DNA of 23,273 bases from a virus. This document shows, piece by piece, positions 3,646 through 18,931 of the stretch. The stretch covers positions 1 through 23,273 of IMG/VR virus record IMGVR_UViG_3300014502_000035; one strand, written 5' to 3'. A program made the position numbers and the translations under genes. Below the pieces are notes generated by a model. That model did no database searches, was not told the DNA's origin, and saw only the letters and a list, made by a program, of their open reading frames with translations. Every line of letters starts with the position of its first letter. Within the stretch, counting starts at the first letter, position 1.

Positions 3646-5403
3646 TTACCTATAATTATTTGATTGTCTGTTATGATTATTTAAAACACCAACTAACTGT
3701 GTACCGTCAATTCGAAATTCTACTCTGCCACCACCTGCACTACCAAGCATGTGTTTTAACTGTGACAGTGGTGCAATAACTTCCGGGTTATTTCTTGCAT
3801 TTGCATATTCACCAACCAATGCCTGTGTCGGTCCAGATACAATAGCACCTTCGGCAAATTTTGGTACTAAACTATTGAATAATGTTGCTGCAAGTCCACC
3901 CATAACTGCACCTAATGCTACACCGATTATTGGATTCTTTGCAAATGCTACTGATTTTTCTATTGCCTGTGCAATTGTTGCTGATAACAAAGCAGCAATT
4001 GCTTGTTTCATAGAACTTGCAACAGTTTTACCAAATTCTTTAAAACTGCTTGCACCTTGACTTATTGAACTTGCAAAATCTCCAAAAGCATTATTTATTC
4101 TTTCTTGTGCATCAGCATATTTATTATTTAAGTCTATTACAGATTTTAATGTGCCACCGTATGCTCTTAATGCTTTATCAGCATCTTTAACTTTATTTGC
4201 TTCAGTAGCACCACCACCAACAGCATTTGCTGCAGGTTTTTCTAATTGTTTGGTGTTTGCATAACCTGCTCTTTCTTCTACAAAAGGATTCTTAACAGTA
4301 CCAACATTTACATCTTTTTCACCAAGTTTAAAACCTGCTTCACTGGTCATGTTGGCTTCTTTCAGTTTATGAAAATCTCTTTCTGCTTGCATTTCTTCAG
4401 CAAGTGCATCCTTTTTAACTCTTGATAAAAGTCTGTTTTGTGCTATTTCTTCCTGCCAGTAAGTAGTACCAACATTATGTTTTTCTTTTTCCAGTTCTGC
4501 AACTTTTGTAACAATTTCCATATTAACCTGACCACCTACCTTAGTAAGTTCTCCCAATGCTTTTGTGTTGGTAATTTCTCTGTCAATTAAATCTTCCCGT
4601 CTTTTTGCATAAGCAAGTGCAGTTGATTCAAAATCAACCAATGCTTCCTTTTTCTGTGCAGGTGAATAATCTCCTGATTTGTCAGTTATAATTGCTCTGT
4701 CTTTTTTCAGTTTTTCTTCAACTTCGGCATTTTTAACTGATTCTTGTACTGCTTCTTTTCTTAAATCATATTGGTCAAGCAATATTTTCTTAAGTTCAAC
4801 TTCTTTAGTTATTCTATTACCTAAATCTCTATCACCATCAAGTATTTCTTGATTGATTTTTTCCATTGCATGTGCTTGGTCGTTTTGTGCTTTTAATTCT
4901 GCTTCAGTTAATTTTATTCCATCATTTTTTACTTTATTTCCAGTAATCCAATTGGCAAGTCTTTTAATATCAAGTGCAGCCATTTCAACACCTGTTCTCA
5001 ATTCAATACCTCTTTCTGCTCCAACACCACCCCTTTCTGCTGTCATTTGCTTTTTCATAAGGTTGGCTGCATCTTGTGTGAAAATGCCTGCACCTTGTCC
5101 AGACTTATCAACAGCAGCCAAATATGCATCTGCACTTTCCTTTGCAAGTTTAAAAGCCTTTATTAGACCACCAATTGCTACAGTAACCAAACCAATGCCT
5201 GTGGCAGCACCTGCAATACCACCAATGGTACTACTCATTTCTCCTGCCATGCCACCAAATTGACCCATAATCTTGGTTAAAGCACCACCTGATTCACTGA
5301 TATTTCTACCCATTTCTTGAGTAGCCTTACTTGCAGCATTTATGCCCTGTGTGAAGCCACCAGATTCAAGAAGTAATGTTGTTAAGAGTGAAAATTTTGC
5401 CAT
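3646..5403 (-). CDS. Tape measure protein
   Basis: 585 residues; the ATG overlaps the end of the frameshifted chaperone frame by 22 nt. The N-terminus has a Gly/Ala-rich hydrophobic stretch (about 58-81), followed by long charged helical and coiled-coil sequence (about 85-400) and a second hydrophobic Gly/Ala-rich stretch (about 470-515). The C-terminus has the pattern FAEGAIVSGPTQALVGE followed by NPEVIAPL, which is frequent at the ends of tape measure proteins. The protein sets tail length and passes into the host at infection. At roughly 1.5 angstroms per residue, 585 residues predict a tail near 90 nm, short for a siphovirus. The location after the chaperone pair is diagnostic. Confidence 0.9.
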   Translation of the reverse strand: MAKFSLLTTLLLESGGFTQGINAASKATQEMGRNISESGGALTKIMGQFGGMAGEMSSTIGGIAGAATGIGLVTVAIGGLIKAFKLAKESADAYLAAVDKSGQGAGIFTQDAANLMKKQMTAERGGVGAERGIELRTGVEMAALDIKRLANWITGNKVKNDGIKLTEAELKAQNDQAHAMEKINQEILDGDRDLGNRITKEVELKKILLDQYDLRKEAVQESVKNAEVEEKLKKDRAIITDKSGDYSPAQKKEALVDFESTALAYAKRREDLIDREITNTKALGELTKVGGQVNMEIVTKVAELEKEKHNVGTTYWQEEIAQNRLLSRVKKDALAEEMQAERDFHKLKEANMTSEAGFKLGEKDVNVGTVKNPFVEERAGYANTKQLEKPAANAVGGGATEANKVKDADKALRAYGGTLKSVIDLNNKYADAQERINNAFGDFASSISQGASSFKEFGKTVASSMKQAIAALLSATIAQAIEKSVAFAKNPIIGVALGAVMGGLAATLFNSLVPKFAEGAIVSGPTQALVGEYANARNNPEVIAPLSQLKHMLGSAGGGRVEFRIDGTQLVGVLNNHNRQSNNYR

Positions 5404-5705
5404 GTTATATCTTTATTATTTACCAAATTCATTAATTCATATTGCTCAGTAACAATGTCTTTACTATCTCTAATTTCTTCTGCATCCCAACTGAATTTCA
5501 AATCATTCAATTCTGCACCCAAGCAAGCACCAATTGTATTTCTCAGAAACCTGACTTTTTCCCAACCCTCTCTGTAATTTTCATTATAATTTCTGAGAAT
5601 TGAATCAACTTCGTATAACGGCATTTCTTCCCAAAAATAATCTGGCTGAATACCAGACTTGACACATATACTGAATATGTCAATTATTTTGGTTTTCTTA
5701 CTGCT
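5382..5705 (-). CDS. Tail assembly chaperone, -1 frameshift extension (GT-like)
   Basis: This is the -1 frame entered at the A9 run. From the re-read base 5705 it runs without a stop for 107 residues to 5382, giving a fused product of 222 residues (115 + 107). An internal ATG (5622-5624) would give an 80-residue product, but the 27 codons before it, including SSKKTKIIDIFSICVKSG, are also open and look coding. In lambda, gpG and gpGT are made the same way and only GT binds the tape measure. The frame overlaps the tape measure start by 22 nt. The EVDSILRNYNENYREGWEKV stretch looks like the T-domain helices of related chaperones. Confidence 0.82.
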   Translation of the reverse strand, partial: SSKKTKIIDIFSICVKSGIQPDYFWEEMPLYEVDSILRNYNENYREGWEKVRFLRNTIGACLGAELNDLKFSWDAEEIRDSKDIVTEQYELMNLVNNKDITWQNFHS

Positions 5706-6049
5706 TTTTTTTTATCCGGTACAATGTCATTTAGACCTTCACTTGCTAATATTATCAGATATGCCTGATAGTCTGCAAATGCCTGTGGATTCTCATCACT
5801 GACATTATCAACAAATTCGTCAAAAGTATATTTGAAAGTCGGATTGTTTGCTTTCAATATACAATAGAAAACTCTATACATGTCGGTTAATGTGCCACTG
5901 ATTTCATCCAGACTTCTCTTAAATATGTCTTCATAAAGCATCAATGCTCTGTTTGTCCTTTTAACTTTGTATTCTCTTACAATTGTGTTAGTGCCACCTG
6001 TAGCATCTATTTCAATTTCATTTAACTTAACTGTAGTCTCTTTTATCAT
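5684..6049 (-). CDS. Tail assembly chaperone, short form (gpG-like)
   Basis: 121 residues from ATG 6049, with the 8-mer motif GTATTTAT 29 nt upstream. The protein is a compact helical chaperone with the segment KYTFDEFVDNVSDENPQAFADY, of the kind common in tail chaperones. It ends in a Lys-rich tail encoded by the slippery A9 run. It lies between the major tail protein and the tape measure, as expected. It would coat the tape measure before tail tube polymerisation. Family assignment rests on size, position and the frameshift. Confidence 0.82.
   Translation of the reverse strand: MIKETTVKLNEIEIDATGGTNTIVREYKVKRTNRALMLYEDIFKRSLDEISGTLTDMYRVFYCILKANNPTFKYTFDEFVDNVSDENPQAFADYQAYLIILASEGLNDIVPDKKKAVRKPK
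5702..5713 (-). promoter_or_regulatory. Programmed -1 ribosomal frameshift site (A AAA AAA)
   Basis: Nine consecutive A (minus strand, 5713-5705) are read in the zero frame as AAA AAA AAA GCA, which contains the slippery heptamer A AAA AAA. Slippage by -1 continues as AGC AGT AAG and opens the downstream frame. The position, near the end of the gene before the tape measure, matches the conserved chaperone frameshift of long-tailed phages. I did not identify a clear downstream pseudoknot by eye. Confidence 0.8.
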
Positions 6050-6732: not shown

Positions 6733-7113
6733 CTAATAGTTTTTCAATTCGTATGTGAGTTTTTGCAGGAAGGCATTGTCTTGGTAACCTTCATCACAAG
6801 TTTTAATCATACACATAACAATATGATTATCTCCTACTGTACCCCTGTAAAAGTTCAAGATTTTGTCAATACGACCAGCAATTTCAATGCTGTCATTATA
6901 AGTTTCAGCAAATACTGTTACTTCCAAAGTGCTATTGCTATAAGCAACACCGTCATCTGAGTATTCACTGTCATAATACCGTTGAATTACAACATAAGGA
7001 AGTTTTTCATCGTGTCGAATAATAAGTGGAAATACTTTGTTACCGATAATCTGTGTTAAACCACTATCTGAAGTCAGTAAAGAGTAAATGGCATTGTTAA
7101 GTTTTATGCTCAT
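6733..7113 (-). CDS. Tail completion / tail terminator protein (DUF3168-like)
   Basis: 126 residues. The order of features matches small tail-terminator proteins of the DUF3168 (gp17-like) group: an N-terminal helix (AIYSLLTSDSGLTQIIG), the motif KVFPLIIRHDEKLPYVVIQR, then a strand-helix segment with VFAETYNDSIEIAGRIDKIL. These cap the growing tail tube and join it to the head. The ATG overlaps the stop of the HNH gene by 4 nt (ATGA), suggesting coupled translation. Assignment by pattern and gene order. Confidence 0.78.
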   Translation of the reverse strand: MSIKLNNAIYSLLTSDSGLTQIIGNKVFPLIIRHDEKLPYVVIQRYYDSEYSDDGVAYSNSTLEVTVFAETYNDSIEIAGRIDKILNFYRGTVGDNHIVMCMIKTCDEGYQDNAFLQKLTYELKNY

Positions 7114-14388: not shown

Positions 14389-14396
14389 CCCCCCCC
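14389..14396. repeat. C8/G8 homopolymer tract between terminase leader and small ORF
   Basis: Eight consecutive C on the plus strand (G8 on the minus, transcribed strand), flanked on both sides by TATA. It is striking in such AT-rich DNA. On the minus strand the first G of the tract is the last base of the small ORF's TAG. Length variation is plausible. Confidence 0.7.
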
Positions 14397-14534: not shown

Positions 14535-15227
14535 TTAGATATCAGTGTTGTTCTTCTTCTTGCTCTTGCTGTTGAACACTTGGCTCCTGATACCAAGACT
14601 GAAGTTAATATTATAGAAGTTTCTTTTGCTTATGTGTAATGTATTGCAGACATATTCTTGAAACCCTTGTGGATTGTAGTTGTTAGCAATCAAGTACTCT
14701 TTAAGTAGGATTAGGTAGACAGGTTTGGTCATTGTTATTCTTTCTTCTGCAATAATTAAATCATCTATCTTTGCCATGATATCCCCCCGGACCTTATCCA
14801 AATCAACTTCATTATCTTCATTGTATTCTTCATTGTCATCTGCACAACATAGGATTGCATCGTCATTACTATCGTATGTTATCAATCGTTGTACATTACT
14901 GACATACTGTGTCATCCTTGCCTGTGTTAATACATAGTTGCTTGCTGCATTCCACAGCCAATTGAGTACACCTTTGACTTTATCTATGTTTAACTTAGTA
15001 TTGAGCACAGTCCAAAGGTGTGTCAGTGTTTCCTGTTTACAGTCTTCTTTCTCTGCCATTGACCAGCCAGAAACATGTTTATTGATTGCATTATCAATTA
15101 AGTAAGATAGATTTGGATATAATTGTCTGAAGATACGATTCCTGGTAATTGCCGAAGTACTTGCTGTACTGCAATAATAAAACTCTTTGATTAACTCAGT
15201 GTCATTGTCAGTCCAATAGTTATTCAA
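14535..15227 (-). CDS. Sigma-70 region 2-like putative phage sigma factor
   Basis: 230 residues starting at TTG (15225-15227), which overlaps the stop of the upstream frame (TTGAATAA); a stop lies shortly upstream in this frame and no ATG occurs near the N-terminus. Residues 35-105 match sigma region 2: RQLYPNLSYLIDNAINKH (2.1), then EDCKQETLTHLWTVLN, corresponding to the D-x-x-Q-E-x-[FL]-x-x-[LV]-W core of 2.2, then VLNWLWNAASNYVLTQAR (2.3-2.4). An acidic stretch (about 128-143) follows. The C-terminus (about 175-212), with ...NTLHISKRNFYNINFSLG, could be a region 4-like HTH. The place at the head of the late genes fits a late sigma factor. Alternative: a sigma-fold protein that no longer binds polymerase. 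Confidence 0.65.
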   Translation of the reverse strand: MNNYWTDNDTELIKEFYYCSTASTSAITRNRIFRQLYPNLSYLIDNAINKHVSGWSMAEKEDCKQETLTHLWTVLNTKLNIDKVKGVLNWLWNAASNYVLTQARMTQYVSNVQRLITYDSNDDAILCCADDNEEYNEDNEVDLDKVRGDIMAKIDDLIIAEERITMTKPVYLILLKEYLIANNYNPQGFQEYVCNTLHISKRNFYNINFSLGIRSQVFNSKSKKKNNTDI

Positions 15228-16287
15228 TGTTTTGTTGTTTTATTGCTTTCCTATTATTTTCTTGACTGTAGATTATTCTTTTTAATGTCTGAATATTAAT
15301 TCTGAATTTTTCAGCAACTTGTTGTACAGTTAATTTGTCATAGGAATATTTTTTACCCCGATAACTGTGTGTTGAATGTTTGTATTTATTTCTCAGATAA
15401 AACTCATAAATTTCATTGATTTTATCTTCTGGAATTTTGATTGGTGTTATATAACAGCCATTTTCAATTATCCTCAGAATGCTTCGTTCAGTTGTGCCGT
15501 ATTTCAATGCTAATTGTTCAGTTGTCAATAAATCTTTGTCATTATAAATGCCTTGATACATTCCATTTTCTCCAACTATTCTCCACAAAGGTATTGCCGG
15601 GTCATCGAGTATTTTATTAATTTCGTCTGTAGTAATTTTCAGATTAAAATCATGTCTTTCATCTTTGGCTATTTTATCAGTTTTATCAATAAATTCGTCA
15701 CCTAAGAGTTTTTTAAACTTATTGTAGATTTTAGAAGTACTTAAATTATATTCTAATGCTAAATCTTTTATAGTTTTGCCGTCTTGGTAATCATCCAGAA
15801 TATCCTGCCATTCATAAAATTCTAATCCTCTGTCATATTGTAGATTTTTATGTAATTTTTTTTCCCGATAATATTTATCAGTACTGACTTTAGGTAAAAC
15901 TGTAATTGGTTCCTGATAATCTAAAATTCTAACAGGTCTATCAGCAAATGGTGGTTTAACACAGTCATTTTTTATTGGTAATAATAATTCAGATTTAACC
16001 CTTTCAGTAAATTTTTCAGTAGTTGGTACTAACGATTGGTTAGTTGCAATTTCTTCAGTTTCTTCTTCACTTAGTATTTCATCTTCAGTTGGTGTTTCAA
16101 TAGATTCTTCAGTTGGTATTTCTTCAGTTTCTTCAGAGGATTCTATGTCTGAATCCTCTCCGTTTAACGGATAATCCTCTGTATTGCTTTCAGTATCACC
16201 ATCCACGGTTTCCCGTGTATGGCTTTCAATAATTTCATTATCACCATTCAGAGGATTCTCTGTATGACTAATTTCAGTAGTTAAGAC
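15220..16287 (-). CDS. Acidic multi-HTH DNA-binding protein, C-terminal part of predicted -1 frameshift fusion
   Basis: This frame has no ATG start: the first usual start is a GTG at 16204-16206, but it is open further upstream through 27 sense codons to the slippery A9 of the preceding HTH gene. Read from base 16287 it adds 355 residues, making a 480-residue fusion. The first 85 or so residues are extremely acidic, with short repeats (ENPLNGDN, then EDYPLNGED; many TEE and ETE units). Numbered from the GTG, HTH-like segments lie at about 132-166 (DYQDGKTIKDLALEYNLS...), 226-248 (LTTEQLALKYGTTERSI) and 290-313 (KLTVQQVAEKFRINIQTLKR). The C-terminus overlaps the sigma-like gene by 8 nt. The likely role is transcription control, unproven. 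Confidence 0.72.
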   Translation of the reverse strand, partial: VLTTEISHTENPLNGDNEIIESHTRETVDGDTESNTEDYPLNGEDSDIESSEETEEIPTEESIETPTEDEILSEEETEEIATNQSLVPTTEKFTERVKSELLLPIKNDCVKPPFADRPVRILDYQEPITVLPKVSTDKYYREKKLHKNLQYDRGLEFYEWQDILDDYQDGKTIKDLALEYNLSTSKIYNKFKKLLGDEFIDKTDKIAKDERHDFNLKITTDEINKILDDPAIPLWRIVGENGMYQGIYNDKDLLTTEQLALKYGTTERSILRIIENGCYITPIKIPEDKINEIYEFYLRNKYKHSTHSYRGKKYSYDKLTVQQVAEKFRINIQTLKRIIYSQENNRKAIKQQNIE

Positions 16288-16661
16288 TTTTTTTTTAATA
16301 CACCAAGCCTTGACAATCGAGTATGAAGTGTTGAATATTTCATATCATGTAGACGTGCTAAATCTGCAAGACTTTCACCATTTTCATACCGTTTGGCTAT
16401 TTCCAGAATTAATTCGTCACTATACATTTTAGCAGGTACTCTTTTATGAACATGTGTTTTTGGCTTTTTAACAACATCTTCAGAAATAGTTGTTTTAAGA
16501 GGTTTTAAGACACTCTGACCTGTTGGTGGAAGGATTGTATTCCCGGAAGCCTGTGTTTCTGCTGAGTTTTCCCGAAGTAATGTTTCAAGCAGTATTTCTT
16601 CCAATTGGTCACGACTAAGCAGAGGAATTAGATTTGGTTGAAGTTCTAAAGTGACTTTCAT
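16281..16661 (-). CDS. HTH protein, first gene of the late block (short form of the fusion)
   Basis: 126 residues from ATG 16661, with motif copy 7 lying 17 nt upstream. Residues 1-35 are helical and acidic; 36-78 are a Pro/Lys-rich linker. Residues 82-121 are a resolvase-like HTH: DELILEIAKRYENGESLADL followed by ARLHDMKYSTLHTRLSRLG. The protein ends KKKS just at the slippery run. It may be made both as this short form and fused to the acidic multi-HTH frame, which would change the number of DNA-binding units from one to four. Confidence 0.8.
   Translation of the reverse strand: MKVTLELQPNLIPLLSRDQLEEILLETLLRENSAETQASGNTILPPTGQSVLKPLKTTISEDVVKKPKTHVHKRVPAKMYSDELILEIAKRYENGESLADLARLHDMKYSTLHTRLSRLGVLKKKS
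16284..16296 (-). promoter_or_regulatory. Predicted programmed -1 frameshift site (A AAA AAG)
   Basis: Minus-strand A9 (16296-16288) followed by GTC. In the zero frame this is TTA AAA AAA AAG TCT TAA, containing the canonical heptamer A AAA AAG (16293-16287) six bases before the stop. After a -1 slip the ribosome reads GTC TTA ACT ACT and continues to 15220. The dnaX slippery sequence of E. coli is the same heptamer. Confidence 0.7.
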
Positions 16662-18089: not shown

Positions 18090-18497
18090 TTAATCTTTTT
18101 TTGTTTCAATCTCTGGCAGTGATTTTTCACTGTCTGGATTGTAATAGTATTGGGTGACATTTTTGACACCAACGATTGGTGACATTTTTGACACCAAGAC
18201 AGGAGTAAAATGAATTGTTATTATGGTGTTTTTTCTGTCACCAATAATAGTAATCCAACCACTATCTTTTAATTCTTTTAACCATCTTTTAATTGTCCGT
18301 TTATCTACCTTAAACATTGTAGCCAATCCTTGAGTAGTTGGTTGCCATTCTTTGTAACCTTTGACCTTACCTTTATTGCTGTTCCAAAGTTTAGTCCAAA
18401 GTATTACAGCACCTGCACTTACAGACATATCATCTGTTAACAATGCTGGAAGCATATTCCATTTTTCCTTTTTCAATTTATTTTTTATTAGTTTCAT
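18090..18497 (-). CDS. Winged-helix/HTH protein, replication-initiator-like
   Basis: 135 residues. After a basic N-terminus, SVSAGAVILWTKLWN is a first helix seen in phage O-like and helix-turn-helix 'replisome organiser' proteins. TTQGLATMFKVDKRTIKRWL then KELKDSGWITIIGDRKN forms a winged helix (about residues 54-90). The C-terminal part is short (NVTQYYYNPDSEKSLPEIE). Its own coding DNA contains a 20-bp direct repeat (18153-18197) and repeats lie just downstream, recalling lambda, where the origin is inside the initiator gene O. Alternatively it is a simple regulator. A replication role is inferred. Confidence 0.72.
   Translation of the reverse strand: MKLIKNKLKKEKWNMLPALLTDDMSVSAGAVILWTKLWNSNKGKVKGYKEWQPTTQGLATMFKVDKRTIKRWLKELKDSGWITIIGDRKNTIITIHFTPVLVSKMSPIVGVKNVTQYYYNPDSEKSLPEIETKKD
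18153..18197. repeat. 20-bp exact direct repeat within the winged-helix gene
   Basis: GGTGACATTTTTGACACCAA occurs at 18153-18172 and again at 18178-18197, 25 bp apart. Each unit has GGTG at one end and CACC near the other. The two copies are in different reading phases of the gene (25 is not a multiple of 3), so protein repetition does not explain the identity. Confidence 0.75.
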
Positions 18498-18657
18498 TAT
18501 TTATTATTTTTCTCAATTCCAGGTACTGCTCAAAGGTCAATCCTTTAATTGGTATCTGTCTATGCCAAAGTTGTTGTCGTGTCTTCTGGTGCCTCAGAAT
18601 TGGCTTAAACTCGATATTATTGACTTGTACTGCCGGACAACATTGCCTTCTTCTCAT
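18478..18657 (-). CDS. Small basic protein, overlapping genes on both sides
   Basis: 59 residues from the ATG at 18657; an in-frame ATG at 18717 would give 79 residues with more overlap with the upstream gene. It begins with a basic, Cys-containing end (MRRRQCCPAVQ) and ends GLTFEQYLELRKIINNETNKK, a helical tail that looks like real protein. It overlaps the next gene by 20 nt and the upstream gene by 41 nt (in other frames). Small and overlapping, so moderately supported. Confidence 0.5.
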   Translation of the reverse strand: MRRRQCCPAVQVNNIEFKPILRHQKTRQQLWHRQIPIKGLTFEQYLELRKIINNETNKK

Positions 18658-18931
18658 TTTTCTTCCTTTCCCTATAGATTTTATTGTAAATTCTGTAATA
18701 TGCAAGTCGTTGTTCACGGTGTTTTAAATTGCATCTTTTCTGCTTGGCAGCCACCAAGTCTTTTCTATTTTTTTGCCAGTCAGAAGTAGCCTTACGAAAT
18801 TTTTCTGGATTTTTTGCCCGGAATTCCCGTTGGTATTCCCGAATTTCTTCACGGTGCTTCTTATTGTATGCCCGTTGACGAAGTAAAATTCGTGTACGGT
18901 GTTTCTGGTAATATTCCTGTGATTGGTTCAT
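18617..18931 (-). CDS. Small Arg/Lys/Tyr-rich protein of the HNH-associated basic-repeat type
   Basis: 104 residues, roughly a third Arg or Lys. It has repeats of the form YxxKH-R-x-x-[IL]-x-x-R-Q: SQEYYQKHRTRILLRQRAYN, then KKHREEIREYQREFRAKN, then KFRKATSDWQKNRKD. Such repeats precede HNH domains in many phage proteins; here no nuclease domain is attached. It may bind nucleic acid. It begins 5 nt after the stop of the 47-aa gene. Confidence 0.68.
   Translation of the reverse strand: MNQSQEYYQKHRTRILLRQRAYNKKHREEIREYQREFRAKNPEKFRKATSDWQKNRKDLVAAKQKRCNLKHREQRLAYYRIYNKIYRERKKNEKKAMLSGSTSQ

Follow-up and report, generated by a model that had tools for sequence, protein, structure and literature searches.

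To our knowledge, the recoding described in tailed phages mostly concerns structural genes (tail chaperone, capsid), and phage regulators rarely show it. The lambda-type tail assembly chaperone G-GT shifts in the −1 direction, as proposed for the gene described here, and the chaperone of the phage under study carries the same A9 run, but its product is a structural assembly protein. Recoding of the present kind is already known, with MxiE, Spa13-Spa32, dnaX, FseA and IS3 OrfAB as precedents. The Shigella genes mxiE (encoding an AraC-family activator and expressed by transcriptional slippage) and spa13-spa32 are likewise split ORFs joined by homopolymer slippage, and slippage there affects translation of the next gene (PMC5009743). 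Their proteins are unrelated to ours, they lie on a bacterial virulence plasmid rather than in a phage, and the sections on them consulted here describe no length-switched homologue. Two products of one gene at an A-run are also made by dnaX (tau and gamma), through ribosomal shifting in E. coli and through transcriptional slippage on A9 in Thermus (PMC5009743, PMC1088944); which of the two forms is made by default varies among dnaX homologues (PMC5009743). The A AAA AAG site is very shifty in E. coli because of its sole tRNA-Lys (PMC5009743, PMC1088944). Baranov et al. report that selection against A/T runs is evident at nine in many bacteria and regard a run kept at nine across homologues as a sign of purposeful slippage (PMC1088944). 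Mobile-element regulators with frameshifting include FseA of ICEMlSymR7A, where the shift is +1, and cro of phage A2, where the shift product is only 12 aa shorter and apparently irrelevant in the natural host (PMC5009743). Finally, IS3-family elements combine an HTH protein (OrfA) with a −1 fusion (OrfAB) made at A AAA AAG.

The split gene and its counterparts in related phages

We analyzed a virus record of 23,273 bases (the window, meaning this whole stretch of DNA) from a tailed phage, all major genes of which lie on the minus strand. One of its ORFs ends in TTA AAA AAA AAG TCT TAA, and the −1 frame is open beyond the run:

16281..16661, minus strand: frame-0 ORF of 126 aa, encoding the short product (N-terminal part plus HTH1), with its stop two codons past A9; homologous to the N-terminal half of the L002 and L004 genes
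16288..16296, minus strand: A9 then G (TTA AAA AAA AAG), the proposed slippage site, T9 on the plus strand; the same A9G lies at 5754-5762 in L004, and A10G at 2112-2121 in L002/L008
15220..16287, minus strand: −1 frame, a C-terminal extension of 355 codons plus stop, with proposed entry via A9; its last 50-77 codons match L004 at 62% and L002 at 52% amino acid identity
16204..16217, minus strand: predicted hairpin CACGG-GAAA-CCGTG around GTG 16206-16204, where the −1 frame has its first start-like codon

From stop to stop the −1 frame spans 16344..15220, and joining both frames yields a product of 480 aa. A preliminary description of this DNA had predicted such a fusion; the end of the 126-aa gene, the A AAA AAG heptamer, the 355 open codons down to 15220 and the 480 residues are all as it gave them, in coordinates and in sequence. 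It had also allowed the −1 frame only one usual start. The GTG is indeed the first common start, after 27 codons, but TTG and ATG codons occur internally further down. The frame is not open by chance, since a stop is expected every ~11 codons in random sequence of the same composition; the chance of 355 stop-free codons is ~1e-14. Codon-usage scores trained on the other window genes are positive in frame 0 up to A9 and in frame −1 beyond it.

A scan with the large terminase recovered six kin contigs and wider scans added a few more. In these IMG/VR scans the regulator gene is carried by only two kin contigs, L004 and L002, both 71% identical to the window in the terminase (L008 denotes the same contig as L002), while L005 and L021 have different genes at this position. 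Homologues were not found by tblastn in annotated phages, nor in 395 Bacteroidia, 393 same-order and 395 same-phylum genomes, which are weak negatives as these sets contain no positive control genome. The comparison covers the three homologues in the searched sets, one of which has A10 in frame, as would be expected of a plain or a phase-variable gene; the small number and this one form both count against the slippage reading.

In L004 the gene (5365-5775) ends TTA AAA AAA AAG ACG AAA AAG TAG, the −1 frame runs on to 6071, and the codon-usage switch of frame at A9 was found there independently. In L002 the gene (1735-2436) is one open frame of 233 aa with TTA AAA AAA AAA GTC, thus A10, at the homologous spot. 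A profile of the window gene matched L004 in two pieces that meet at the A-run and L002 in one. Differences in the C-terminal frame fall mostly at codon position 3 (17/10/24 for the 62% pair and 26/20/43 for the 52% pair). The N-terminal half of the window gene matches those of L004 and L002 weakly (29-34%); the match between L004 and L002 is 42-47% from end to end, before and after the run alike.

Because L004 repeats the A9 and the −1 switch and L002 encodes both halves in one 233-aa gene, the fusion is, on this comparison of sequences, well supported as the real long product, as the preliminary description had proposed. It had also named relatives with the two frames joined without slippage as evidence against programmed shifting; L004 keeps the A9 and both frames, whereas L002 joins them without slippage through its A10.

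Probable slippage at the A-run and competing explanations

Straight reading through A9 would give the 126-aa protein ending just past HTH1. One extra A in the mRNA (transcriptional slippage) or a ribosomal −1 slip on A AAA AAG would instead lead into the −1 frame and yield the 480-aa protein with further HTH domains, in which the A-run would encode the beginning of a linker joining two DNA-binding parts. We consider it likely that a single gene yields two regulators, one short and one long, by slippage at the run; both are presumably produced. In the window and L004 the short form would be the default and the long form would arise via slippage; in L002 the long form would be the default. Slippage in L002 would therefore give the short form, since a stop follows the run within 13 codons in each of the other two frames. 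This parallels the differing default forms of dnaX, although the product of dnaX is a DNA polymerase component and not a regulator. That A9 recurs in L004, beside A10 in L002, points to a slippage site tuned in length and not to a simple error.

A run of nine A's is not in itself significant in this genome, as ~3.3 runs of at least nine are expected in the window genes from codon-usage shuffles and two are seen. Runs of eight or more are depleted (5 against 9.5 expected). Both A9 runs of the window lie at reading-frame transitions, and AAG breaks up every other KKK stretch. The second run is in the tail assembly chaperone, which served as a comparison site:

5684..6049, minus strand: tail assembly chaperone, frame-0 ORF
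5705..5713, minus strand: A9 tract of the same design, kept as A9 in six kin phages
5382..5711, minus strand: −1 frame of the chaperone, similar among kin right after A9 (..IIDIY..)

That the chaperone shares the A9 design had been claimed before and is real: the run is exactly nine A's in the window, L004, L005, L007, L008 and L021. Its codon phase is GAY AAA AAA AAA G in the window and L008 and xxA AAA AAA AAG in L004, L005, L007 and L021. Just past the run the −1 frames share a similar segment (..IIDIY.. and variants) located 5' of any ATG in frame; the L004 chaperone locus ends soon past the run. More A9 runs occur in or near small ORFs of the kin (L004 5152-5160 and 14794-14802; L008 9924-9932), one of them in frame inside an HNH-like gene.

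Slippage genes are marked by at least nine A or T within the gene at the frame transition; the window and L004 have A9 there, and L002 carries A10. By the conservation of the run among homologues, the criterion set out in Baranov 2005 (PMC1088944), the regulator shows 9, 9 and 10 and the tail sites nine in 6/6. With KKK and the heptamer taken as fixed, an exact A9 depends on a preceding codon that ends in A, which is the case at all six xxA-phase sites (four tail, two regulator), with a joint probability of ~0.007. This suggests selection on run length, although the evidence is modest. Such selection would be what slippage by RNA polymerase needs, again as modest evidence and not as proof. Counting against the slippage reading, LKKK combined with AAA-rich codon usage makes it fairly likely that A9 or A10 arose at the regulator spot by chance.

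Slippage mainly by RNA polymerase, or a mixture of both processes, is somewhat favoured by these comparisons over a pure heptamer-driven ribosomal −1 shift, because the nine-A tail runs of the kin occur in two codon phases and no stimulatory RNA structure is well placed. Purely ribosomal programmed frameshifting at A AAA AAG, as in E. coli dnaX and IS3-like elements, with the A9 length incidental, would share the two-product model and differ in mechanism alone. Both the window and L004 do have the heptamer correctly phased, in the zero frame, and the −1 direction is that of the well-established phage tail chaperone shift. We nevertheless regard this mechanism, which the preliminary description had put forward, as rather unlikely. 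L002 lacks the AAG heptamer, and the tail sites of the kin keep nine A's across the two phases. A tRNA-Lys(CUU), which by the dnaX precedent should weaken slippage on AAG (PMC5009743), is present in the Bacteroidales MAG with a kin prophage (L021), a genome that may not be that of the window phage's host. Prediction of stem-loops, which usually but not always accompany ribosomal −1 sites 5-9 nt downstream, located none 5-10 nt downstream of the run and none conserved among the window, L004 and L002. The nearest hairpin in the window is more than 20 nt away; hairpins 25-90 nt downstream (z = -3.4) are not conserved but could matter, and neither L004 nor L002 has a comparable one.

Homopolymers are classic contingency sites, and phase variation is the most serious rival to slippage as such. 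Here the run would change length in replication, A10 phages being ON (fusion) and A9 phages OFF, consistent with A9 in the window and L004 and A10 in L002 at the same place. This appears improbable, more so than ribosomal shifting: the chaperone A9 is exact in six phages at a site where tail assembly should call for −1 shifting during expression, so the run looks stable enough in DNA and slippery in expression, and an OFF regulator should not retain a clean 355-codon frame unless switching were frequent.

Translation of the −1 frame alone, as a separate gene starting at GTG in the window or TTG in L004, is very unlikely. Although such codons exist in both phages, their positions are non-homologous, the window GTG sits in a hairpin stem, and coding signal is already present in the open frame at A9, ahead of the start. 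In addition, the short stretch leading from the run to the L004 TTG matches L002, and L002, being a single gene, has no separate start.

A sequencing or assembly error in length, with a true A10 and one plain gene as in L002, is highly unlikely, because the A9 split recurs in the distant relative L004, obtained from another sample, and no frame breaks occur in the other window genes, even where these contain A8 runs.

A further frame transition suspected at 18478-18931 turned out to be an ordinary overlap with an ATG start.

Domains of the two predicted products and the adjacent gene

Under slippage at the run, the two products would differ in their HTH content. The domains and the gene that follows are:

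16308..16424, minus strand: HTH1 (short-form residues 80-118), directly 5' of A9; PF01527 HTH_Tnp_1, E=7e-5, below the curated cut-off
16048..16200, minus strand: acidic E/D/T/S-rich low-complexity linker, missing from the relatives
15703..15819, minus strand: HTH2, in this phage only; best-scoring stretch of a low-confidence model
15463..15564, minus strand: HTH3, Mor-like, conserved in L002 and L004; PF08765 Mor, E=1.4e-5 (L002 E=7.5e-4)
15262..15339, minus strand: HTH4, in this phage only; HTH_Tnp_ISL3/HTH_23, E about 1e-4, below the cut-offs
14535..15227, minus strand: conserved 230-aa gene with an 8-nt overlap with the fusion stop (window TTGAATAA; L002 and L004 ATGAGTAA); resembles sigma factors very weakly

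The short form thus consists of the N-terminal helical part and HTH1, and the window long form has an acidic linker and two HTHs beyond what the relatives have. All four HTH-like segments of the preliminary description are seen, but the Mor-like one alone passes a curated Pfam cut-off and the others are weak; the very acidic region is present as well, but only this phage has it, and the same holds for two of the four HTHs. HTH3 scores 25.5 bits against PF08765 (cut-off 24.9), yet it covers only profile positions 60-93 of 107, ~34 residues; the L002 match (19.9 bits) falls below the cut-off. The likeness to the Mor/C family activators of phage Mu is confined to these residues and the overall architecture differs. 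HTH1 weakly resembles HTH_Tnp_1, as in IS3 OrfA, but the extension here consists of further HTHs; the fused frame contains no DDE integrase core, and its identity as an IS3-type OrfAB transposase was ruled out.

A low-confidence model of the L002 protein (pLDDT 64) has a long helix at 16-51, HTH1 at 88-123 and HTH3 at 191-226, and LKKK (125-128) opens a disordered linker between the two helical HTH regions. A fold search with this model gave no significant PDB match, and the single-sequence model of the window C-terminal part is poor (47 pLDDT). The window proteins probably bind DNA. Conserved splitting of the frame that encodes a DNA-binding protein, close to the terminase genes, would show phages setting regulator dosage via slippage.

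The stop codon of the fusion overlaps the start of the next gene in 3/3 phages. This 230-aa gene is conserved in five phages and lies upstream of small proteins and the terminase. Its identity as a sigma factor is only hinted at, by weak profile matches (Pfam Sigma70_r2, E=0.019 in one of five). With the long frame ending on its start codon, slippage could couple or set its translation. We propose that slippage may affect this translation because unshifted ribosomes would stop ~1 kb earlier in the window and 0.3 kb earlier in L004. By extension, we infer that the regulators time the switch to the late (packaging) genes. Tentatively, a single A gained or lost in evolution might flip the default (A9 short, A10 long), with polymerase slippage setting the short:long ratio and gating translation of the adjacent gene, so that the length of the run would serve as a dial for the late switch.

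Upstream of the large terminase gene (by ~350-640 nt), G7-G8 followed by TATA/TATT recurs in five contigs: window 14389-14396 (G8, minus strand), L015 26-32, L018 580-586, L021 6637-6643 and L019 57-63. In L018 and L021 the G run occurs as a nearby C7...G7 pair. It is perhaps a packaging or promoter signal.

With the same A9 in its tail chaperone, one genome would hold two sites for slippage in the host group of this phage, for which the literature searched contained no described slippage case. The terminase-region proteins of L018 (IMG/VR contig 3300022666_000081) are identical to those of a prophage region in the Bacteroidales MAG WXFD01000075.1 (L021), and this comparison suggests a Bacteroidales host for the phage group. 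Among the other kin, L005 carries an intergenic direct tandem repeat of ~57 bp (TAATGGATAACATCAATCAGAGATTTAAATTCAACCAGACCACTTAAAAATGATTG) at ~327-440, and in L007 one motif (TT-A8-GCGTATTTAATAAAAA) occurs twice near gene ends, at 3963-3982 and 7056-7075.
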